Source: Nocardioides aurantiacus
Lineage (GTDB): Bacteria; Actinomycetota; Actinomycetes; Propionibacteriales; Nocardioidaceae
DNA: 64,000 nucleotides
Direction of reading: 5' to 3'
NCBI RefSeq assembly: GCF_003752505.1
Contig: NZ_RKHO01000001.1
Coordinates: 1,612,001-1,676,000 of the forward strand
Shown: positions 55,697 through 57,656 of the stretch, one piece after another
How the letters are laid out: each line of letters starts with the position of its first letter
Position numbering within the stretch: the first letter of the stretch is position 1
The notes under the pieces: generated by a model
Seen by the model: only the letters and a program-made list of their open reading frames with translations
The model's database searches: none
Told to the model about the DNA's origin: nothing
Program-made: the position numbers and the translations under genes

Positions 55697-56578
55697 ATGA
55701 GTCGTCCCACCGCCACCCGCCGCCGCCGCGGCACCACCCTGCTCGCGCTGGCCCTGGCCGGCGCCGTCGCGGGGGTGCTTCCCGCGGGGGCCCAGGCCGC
55801 CGACCGCGGCGACACCGCTGACGCCGCGGCGCCCCGCACCACGGCCAGCGGGACGCTGCGGGTGGCGCACGCCAACCTGAAGTTCAAGATGTCCGGGGCG
55901 CAGTTCGCCGCCGACCTGGCCCAGGTCGTCTCCTCGCGGCCCGACGTGGTCTCGCTCAACGAGGTCAGCCGTCGGACGCCGGCACAGCTCGCGACGCGCG
56001 GCTACGCCTCGTTCATGCCGCGCGAGAAGGGCAACGGCAACGCCGTGCTGTGGCGCACCGACCGCTTCACGCGGGTCGCGGGCGGCTATCGCGTGCTGGT
56101 CGAGAAGGGCCCGCTGAAGTACGACGCCAACCGCCTCGCGACCTGGGCGGTGCTGCGCTCCACCACGGGGGGAGAGGTCTCGCTGGTCTCGACCCACCAC
56201 ATGCAGAACCCCGCCAAGTTCGGACCCGACAAGCCGCTGCGTCAGCGGCTCTACGCCCAGGGCATGCAGCGCATCGACGCCCTGGTCACCGAGCTGTCCC
56301 GGCGTGGGCCGGTGTTCGTCGCCGGTGACTTCAACAGCCAGTTCCGCCACGACGACGCCTGGGGCCCGCGTCGGACCCTGGCGCCGGCCGGGCTGGTCTC
56401 GGCCATGGAGACCCGCGGCGTCGTGCCCACGCACGACGGAGGCGGCGTCATCGACTACGTCTTCGCCCCGCGGGCCACGACCACCGCGACGGCCCAGCGA
56501 GTGACCTCGCTGCGCAGCGACCACAAGCTCATCGTCAACGACTTCCGGTTCGCCGCCCCGACGACGCGCGGACGGTGA
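55697..56578 (+). CDS. Secreted endonuclease/exonuclease/phosphatase family protein
   Basis: A 293-residue protein. Residues 1-35 are a signal peptide (Arg-rich start, then LLALALAGAVAGVLPAGAQA). The EEP core has VAHANLKFKMSGAQ (Asn), DVVSLNEVSR (metal Glu), VSTHHMQNP, VFVAGDFNSQ (Asp, Asn) and LRSDHKLIVNDF (Asp-His). It is probably an extracellular DNase-like or phosphodiesterase enzyme. ATG 55697 follows GAGG; GTG 55688 is an in-frame alternative. The GNAT gene overlaps by 4 bp. Confidence 0.88.
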   Translation: MSRPTATRRRRGTTLLALALAGAVAGVLPAGAQAADRGDTADAAAPRTTASGTLRVAHANLKFKMSGAQFAADLAQVVSSRPDVVSLNEVSRRTPAQLATRGYASFMPREKGNGNAVLWRTDRFTRVAGGYRVLVEKGPLKYDANRLATWAVLRSTTGGEVSLVSTHHMQNPAKFGPDKPLRQRLYAQGMQRIDALVTELSRRGPVFVAGDFNSQFRHDDAWGPRRTLAPAGLVSAMETRGVVPTHDGGGVIDYVFAPRATTTATAQRVTSLRSDHKLIVNDFRFAAPTTRGR

Positions 56579-57057
56579 TCCGGGGACGCCTCGAGGCCGA
56601 CCTCGACCCGCTGGTCGAGGTCCTCGGCACGTTGCGCCTGCCGACCCCGGGAGCATCGGCCCGCGGACGTCGGGACTGGCTGGTGGCCGGCGAGGTCGAG
56701 CTCGCCTGGGTCTTCGACCAGGCGCCGGTCACGGTGGTGCCCACACGCCGGGTCGTCGGTCACGTCGAGGTCCACCGGCCGGCGCGCGCCACGGCGGCGG
56801 CGTACGTCGTCGACGGCGGGGCTCCCGACGACGACCTGCGGGAGATCGGCCGGTTGTTCGTGGCGCCCGGGCCGCACCACGACGGCATCGCCCGGTTCCT
56901 GCTGCGCGAGTCCGTGGCCCACGTGCGCCGGCTCGGCGCCAGCGTCGTGCTCGACCTGCGTGACAACGTGTCGTTGACGCGGTCGGTCGTCGAGCGGCAC
57001 GGGTTCGTGCCCGCCGAGGCGCCAGGAGGGGTCGGGAGCCGCTACCGGCTCCCCTGA
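56575..57057 (+). CDS. GNAT family N-acetyltransferase
   Basis: A 160-residue acetyltransferase. The core is VVGHVEVHR, then LREIGRLFVAPGPHHDGIARFLLRESVAHVRRLGASVVLDL (motif A with acetyl-CoA loop, atypical GPHHDGIA in place of QGxGxA) and LTRSVVERHGFVPAEA. The acceptor is unknown. GTG 56575 overlaps the EEP stop (GTGA), suggesting coupled expression. The dif site lies 14 bp after its stop. Confidence 0.85.
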   Translation: MIRGRLEADLDPLVEVLGTLRLPTPGASARGRRDWLVAGEVELAWVFDQAPVTVVPTRRVVGHVEVHRPARATAAAYVVDGGAPDDDLREIGRLFVAPGPHHDGIARFLLRESVAHVRRLGASVVLDLRDNVSLTRSVVERHGFVPAEAPGGVGSRYRLP

Positions 57058-57070
57058 GGCGTCCCCATGT

Positions 57071-57098
57071 GTCGCCGATAAGCGACATTATGTCAACT
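57071..57098. other. Chromosomal dif site (XerC/XerD recombination site)
   Basis: A 28-bp site with an 11-bp arm GTCGCCGATAA (57071-57081), a 6-bp centre GCGACA (57082-57087) and an 11-bp arm TTATGTCAACT (57088-57098). The right arm matches the XerD-arm pattern TTATGTNAAnT of bacterial dif sites. The CCGATAA...ACATTATGTCAA core matches what I recall of actinobacterial dif sites. It is intergenic. The polar oligomer GGGGGAG changes strand exactly here, independent evidence for the replication terminus. XerC/XerD would resolve chromosome dimers at this site under FtsK control. Confidence 0.9.
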
Positions 57099-57176
57099 AC
57101 TGGGCACTCACCGCGGCTGCCGGCCCGGAATGTCCTCCCCCCGTCCTCTGTTGGCGGGAGCGAGAGGAGCACCACC

Positions 57177-57656
57177 ATGGACCACGACCAGCAGCACCCC
57201 ACGCCCGACGACCACGACGCGACCCCGGAGCTGCGCGTCCCGGCGCTCGTCTTCCCGGGACAGCTGGCCGACCCGGCGTCGGCCCACCGGCTGGCCTGGG
57301 ACCTGCTGGAGCGGCGCGCCCCGCGGGAGGCGCTGGAGGTGCTGGACGCCGCGCTCGCCCAGGACGAGGACAACGTCGGCCTCCGCACCCTGCGGGCGTG
57401 GGCCTACCTGATCCAGGCACGCCTGGGCCACGCCGAGGCCGAGCTGCGCTGGCTGGTGGCGGCCGACCCCTCCGACGAGTGGGCCCGGCACGCGCTGGGA
57501 CGCAGCCTGGAGCGGCAGTCGCGCTACGCCGACGCGCTGCCCCACCTGCGGCTGGCCGCCGCGATGACCGGTGACCCCGAGCACGAGACGGCCGTGCTGC
57601 GCGTGGAGCGGCGGCTCGCCGAGACCGGCGCCACGTCGTACGACGCGCTGCGCTGA
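57177..57656 (+). CDS. Tetratricopeptide repeat protein
   Basis: A 159-residue protein. After an acidic N-terminus rich in His/Asp/Gln, helix pairs typical of TPRs follow: SAHRLAWDLLERRAPREALEVLDAAL, NVGLRTLRAWAYLIQARLGHAEAELRWLV and EWARHALGRSLERQSRYADALPHLRLAAAM. It is a probable protein-interaction adaptor. The function is unknown. ATG 57177 has an SD (GAGAGGAG). It is the first gene beyond dif and converges on the next gene with a 3-bp gap. Confidence 0.85.
   Translation: MDHDQQHPTPDDHDATPELRVPALVFPGQLADPASAHRLAWDLLERRAPREALEVLDAALAQDEDNVGLRTLRAWAYLIQARLGHAEAELRWLVAADPSDEWARHALGRSLERQSRYADALPHLRLAAAMTGDPEHETAVLRVERRLAETGATSYDALR

Follow-up and report, generated by a model that had tools for sequence, protein, structure and literature searches.

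The right arm of actinobacterial dif sites is TTATGTCAA; such sites were reportedly treated by Hendrickson and Lawrence in 2007, and the architecture-imparting sequences of Corynebacterium are said to follow work of the same authors from 2006. In the consulted part of Kono 2011, actinobacterial dif sites are 28 bp long, have a 6-bp centre between arms of 11 bp each, and occur once per chromosome near the terminus, and a dif site was predicted in 66 of 66 single-chromosome Actinobacteria. The text available for Actinoplanes sp. SE50/110 places a dif site with CGATAA and TTATGTCAACT arms almost opposite oriC. For Corynebacterium, (T/C)GGGGGAG is already known, according to the excerpts consulted, as an architecture-imparting sequence; this octamer and G(A/T/C)GGGGGA were used to find dif, and in C. 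aurimucosum the two together favor the leading strand (856:61). GGGGGAG appears in five genome papers on Corynebacterium. The KOPS of E. coli and Vibrio, GGGNAGGG, is presented in the consulted text as G-rich, polar, and converging on dif, and a 2026 paper on mycobacterial FtsK describes KOPS, in its consulted section, as G-rich without a sequence. In a literature search, GGGGGAG and FtsK were mentioned together just in work unrelated by title, and GGGGGAG never appeared together with 'replication terminus'.

The window analyzed here is a stretch of 64,000 nucleotides of Nocardioides aurantiacus (positions 1,612,001-1,676,000 of a one-contig genome of 4,060,008 bases). The dif site, GTCGCCGATAAGCGACATTATGTCAACT, lies on its plus strand at 57071..57098 (1,669,071-1,669,098 of the genome) and was assigned from the sequence, the single copy, and the recurrence in the family. 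The left 11-bp arm occupies 57071..57081, the 6-bp central region GCGACA 57082..57087, and the right 11-bp arm 57088..57098, all on the plus strand. By analogy with E. coli dif, we take the left arm to be the XerC side and the right arm the XerD side. The 28-mer, its 11-6-11 layout, and its position had been given exactly in the preliminary description, and the site has the length, arms, and centre of the actinobacterial dif pattern. There was no notable difference from actinobacterial dif sites, and GC skew was here too weak for placement. The arms of the Actinoplanes site agree with those found here, and the central and outer left bases, in the text available for it, differ. Allowing up to three mismatches, the 28-mer occurred once in the window (never in 100 shuffles) and, as had been expected, once in the 4,060,008-base contig, i.e., one copy per chromosome; a reversed control pattern gave no match in the contig. 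Phage records searched with a 401-base stretch around dif gave no match.

The site had been described as lying between a GNAT gene and a TPR gene. The second assignment held: the downstream ORF (57177..57656, plus strand) matched tetratricopeptide repeats above the cut-off (PF14559, 26.9 bits, cut-off 25). The upstream ORF (56575..57057, plus strand) is a borderline GNAT acetyltransferase, 0.1 bits under the cut-off (PF00583, 20.6 bits, cut-off 20.7), and gave no match to NCBIfam profiles. An alternative GTG start at 57069 gives a longer TPR frame running through dif; the ATG at 57177, preceded by a purine-rich stretch, is the likelier start. Among ten loci with related TPR genes, where the named relatives were Marmoricola, Nocardioides, and Nocardioidaceae (consistent with the family suggested in the preliminary description), dif was found 129 bp before the match in one (Marmoricola sp. 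Leaf446), and nine had no dif core in the surrounding DNA, two of these with little DNA before the gene. Conserved dif neighbors were rejected as a marker: several of eight tested window genes were common to just two of 20 relatives (L081, L085), and the gene order around dif was common to the window and one of them (L085). The flanking genes differed from those of the window in 18 of the 20 loci (tblastn, eight window proteins), with a GNAT match of 37.5% in one of the 18 and weak aldo-keto-reductase matches in three as exceptions.

For the comparison with family dif sites suggested by the preliminary description, 294 genomes were searched with a pattern of the arms plus ACA (up to three mismatches). 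A like site was present in 263 of them and a control pattern in none; eight genomes had two matches each. A looser core was applied to 22 of the 31 genomes missing the site, the nine left out being less complete ones, and gave 17 matches (11 exact), some of the non-exact ones resembling chance; the control matched once in each of two genomes. Across the phylum, a short core with up to one mismatch was found in 49 of 298 genomes. It was found in none of the 16 genomes of one family of large genomes (f3), which, as a guess, would fit linear chromosomes. The window site was compared with those of 20 relatives, which were chosen by hand among the 263 and include 13 of the same genus. Among these 21 sites, found with the ACA-containing pattern at up to three mismatches, the first three bases of the centre vary and the last three are ACA in 20. 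The right arm TTATGTCA was present in all 21, the sites having been selected with patterns holding most of these letters, and the inner letters, likewise contained in the search patterns, were constant. The bases directly outside the 28 were mostly different.

Dif-like sites with the centre NNNANC instead of NNNACA were detected as 11 sites in nine of the 294 family genomes (control none), and none was found in the genome of the window. At one locus (L217, G266:C1:2405000-2424999), sites at ~7136 and ~13259 with the centres TTAACC and CCTATC have the same orientation, are 6.1 kb apart, and enclose genes with CrcB, DUF190, MFS, enolase, and histidine-phosphatase domains. This gene set recalls a fluoride-resistance cassette. 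A DDE transposase ORF lies ~0.9 kb outside the pair, and a run of 21 bases, beginning 8 bases beyond the first site's right arm, is the same as that beyond the likely own dif of that genome. The paired sites resemble the dif modules of Acinetobacter. In G209 (L212), a second site is located near an Abi_2-like ORF (25.2 bits, cut-off 25.6) and an ImmA/IrrE-type ORF. Dif-like sites with an NNNANC-type centre were also seen in 18 IMG/VR viral-contig stretches (L229-L246), which are possible users of host XerCD.

The genome encodes seven tyrosine-recombinase domains. The two strongest had XerD and XerC as their top equivalogs, each below the curated cut-off. The XerD-like protein scored 316.7 with the equivalog (cut-off 329.6) and 350.1 with the broader model, above its cut-off of 279; for the XerC-like protein the values were 301.4 (cut-off 335.15) and 269.9, just under 279. 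The ORFs beside these genes appear, on our reading, to be ParA-like and DprA-like. One FtsK with a gamma domain was found, and this domain matches solved FtsK chains, so that the XerC-like, XerD-like, and FtsK-gamma genes of a dif system are all present. In the consulted part of PMC5357621, the QR-GN residues of FtsK gamma are named for XerD contact; read from the alignment to the solved chains, Q, R, and G are kept here and N is replaced by A, which is not decisive.

Since dnaA is located at 3,898,452, dif lies 1.83 Mb from it clockwise and 2.23 Mb the other way (45.1% and 54.9% of the circle), ~199 kb off the antipode. The site is thus roughly opposite dnaA, and a polar motif switches at it, which places it in the terminus region. 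GC skew was rejected as a terminus locator, being too weak for fine placement. The cumulative extremum anticipated at dif was not seen: over 499 kb of contiguous sequence around dif, the maximum fell at 1,426,977 and the minimum at 1,902,368. In the sampled genome, the best change-point of GC skew was 1.598 Mb, with an interval (1.37-1.79 Mb) that contains dif at 1.669 Mb, and the mean over 4-kb blocks had the expected sign on both arms (clockwise +0.0048, opposite arm -0.0124). The claim that dif marks the terminus holds for the region and not necessarily for the exact point where the forks meet; forks need not meet at dif (Kono 2011; PMC13342612; both as far as the consulted parts go). On the longer arm, GC was down to 0.66-0.68 in two stretches (1.90 and 2.03 Mb), and, apart from the XerD-like match, three of integrase type were located at 2.02-2.08 Mb. 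The region of ~1.90-2.09 Mb may hold mobile islands, which might account for the position of dif off the antipode.

Polar motifs were screened as changes in strand preference among 1,339 six-letter words in a sampled 30% of the genome. The top words, GGGGGA (lnLR 123) and GGGGAG (77.5), are parts of one heptamer, GGGGGAG, and changed in the block containing dif; the next word reached 23.7. In the sample, GGGGGAG was distributed 427:26 between the leading and lagging strands. All 41 copies within 40 kb of dif point to it (21 forward on the left, 20 reverse on the right), and over 499 kb the best split, 116:5 versus 1:76, fell in the interval from -917 to +50 bp relative to the dif centre. Because sampling was denser around dif, a change-point is resolved better there than at other places. 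In the window, 28 forward and no reverse copies lie left of dif, and five reverse and no forward copies right of it. The nearest left copy is at 56168..56174 (plus strand), and the nearest right copy at 57135..57141 (minus strand), pointing back, 36 bp from the edge of the site. A fixed spacing of the latter was rejected: such a copy was present in the DNA covered for 18 of the 20 relatives, at distances of 17 to 3,366 bp. No wrong-way copies were present within 50 kb on each side of dif, and in the bins nearest dnaA they made up 4 of 22 and 8 of 36. On the clockwise arm, the density of GGGGGAG showed a broad rise toward dif, and on the other arm the rise was uneven; the bias was strongest near dif.

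The bias was the same whether ORFs ran in the direction of the fork (137:6) or opposite to it (134:5), the ORFs being called by a simple custom rule, and thus the coding strand does not explain it; outside ORFs the count was 156:15. Among the 21 single-base variants, 17 were below 1.5:1 (e.g., GGGGGCG 353:334, GGGCGAG 535:498, GGGGGTG 249:236), and the highest was 3:1; the four higher ones were AGGGGAG (42:14), GGGGGAT (50:19), GGGGGAC (123:52), and GGGGGGG (14:8). Six rearranged heptamers leaned 1.6 to 2.3:1 to the leading strand. Variants and rearrangements therefore indicate a general lean of G-rich words, far above which GGGGGAG stands (16:1). The E. coli word GGGNAGGG was rejected as a marker, as its preference changes near dif but weakly: it was distributed 30:19 on the left and 16:35 on the right in 499 kb, which was reached by 20 of 500 permutations, and in the wider sample it also changed at dif (lnLR 11.5). 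The polarity of GGGGGAG in this genome is far greater. GGGCAGGG gave no polarity signal in the 499 kb around dif, and GGGCAGGGNNNNG, likewise rejected, occurred at least 72 times forward and at least 100 times reverse in the genome.

Since the heptamer was chosen from the same genome as the 427:26 count, the relatives serve as the independent test. Within 5 kb on each side of dif, GGGGGAG was oriented toward and away from it 132:0 in the 20 relatives, with copies on both sides in 18, on one side in one, and none in one. At the nine TPR loci away from dif, a single direction was seen (40 forward to one reverse) with no switch. Another 32 genomes were a subset of the 49 phylum matches, picked mainly for room on the contig; outside the 32 were 15 matches, the genome of the window, and one already used. 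For six other families of the class (20 genomes, 10 kb on each side), the ratio was 151:3, and rearranged or substituted control heptamers gave 44:90 to 57:25. The 12 genomes from other classes gave 62:7 for GGGGGAG; no switch at the dif-like core was seen in four of these, two of one family (1:2 in both), one whose copies were forward on either side, and one without copies. The sharp reversal of GGGGGAG at dif, a known kind of signal, is thus added to the preliminary description over several families. The Corynebacterium architecture-imparting sequences, in the excerpts consulted, contain the same word on the leading strand; beyond that genus, the present data extend it to Nocardioidaceae and further families and resolve the switch to ~1 kb.

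The reading as a terminus-proximal dif site is borne out by direct observations: the site and its single copy, its recurrence in 263 of 294 genomes, the Xer and FtsK genes, its place, and the polarity switch. It belongs with the standard XerCD/FtsK dif sites and has polar motifs that converge on it. Almost certainly, it is the chromosomal dif at which XerC/XerD resolve dimers, with FtsK most likely oriented by GGGGGAG; recombination at dif and binding of GGGGGAG by FtsK gamma are both what we infer. Recombination would join two sister circles, and septal FtsK would then pump the DNA of both arms toward dif, align the two dif copies, and switch on XerD, after which strand exchange by XerC/XerD would yield two monomers. 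The direction of FtsK would most likely be read from GGGGGAG, pointing to dif on both arms and reversing within ~1 kb.

It is very improbable that the site is instead a dif-like attachment site that stems from a plasmid or integrative element using XerCD. The second dif-like sites with another centre in nine family genomes, two of which were examined and lie near mobile- or defence-type genes, lend this some support, but the present genome has no other-centre sites and one copy of the present site, the surrounding gene order recurs in L085, and the switch of GGGGGAG at the site speaks strongly against it. Still less probable, and in practice refuted, is a chance or regulatory inverted repeat. 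The 28-mer does form a short imperfect palindrome and lies upstream of a gene; against this stand the like sites across the family with none for the control, the flanking genes that differ in 18 of 20 loci, and the lack of chance copies.

The polarity of GGGGGAG could also be unrelated to FtsK, as with a recombination signal of the Chi kind or a sequence linked to replication, and this we consider unlikely, though far less so than the foregoing. Chi-type signals are strand-biased too and often G-rich, the binding of GGGGGAG by FtsK is here a prediction, the word differs from the E. coli GGGNAGGG, and on one arm it becomes denser toward dif in an uneven way. On the other hand, dif is where the polarity reverses and where the bias peaks, and Chi is reported, in the consulted part of PMC5993296, not to rise toward the terminus. 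With its strand polarity and its reversal at dif, GGGGGAG behaves as would be expected of an FtsK-orienting sequence, and it may steer FtsK in Actinomycetota. Much of this phylum, across more than one class, probably uses it to orient FtsK; the KOPS would then be a heptamer unlike the E. coli octamer, able to place dif to ~1 kb even where GC skew fails.

The site itself is expected housekeeping. As GC skew is too weak to fix the terminus region, the dif site is of practical use for doing so. The sharp reversal of the heptamer at dif in several actinobacterial families makes it a testable candidate for the FtsK-steering sequence in the phylum.
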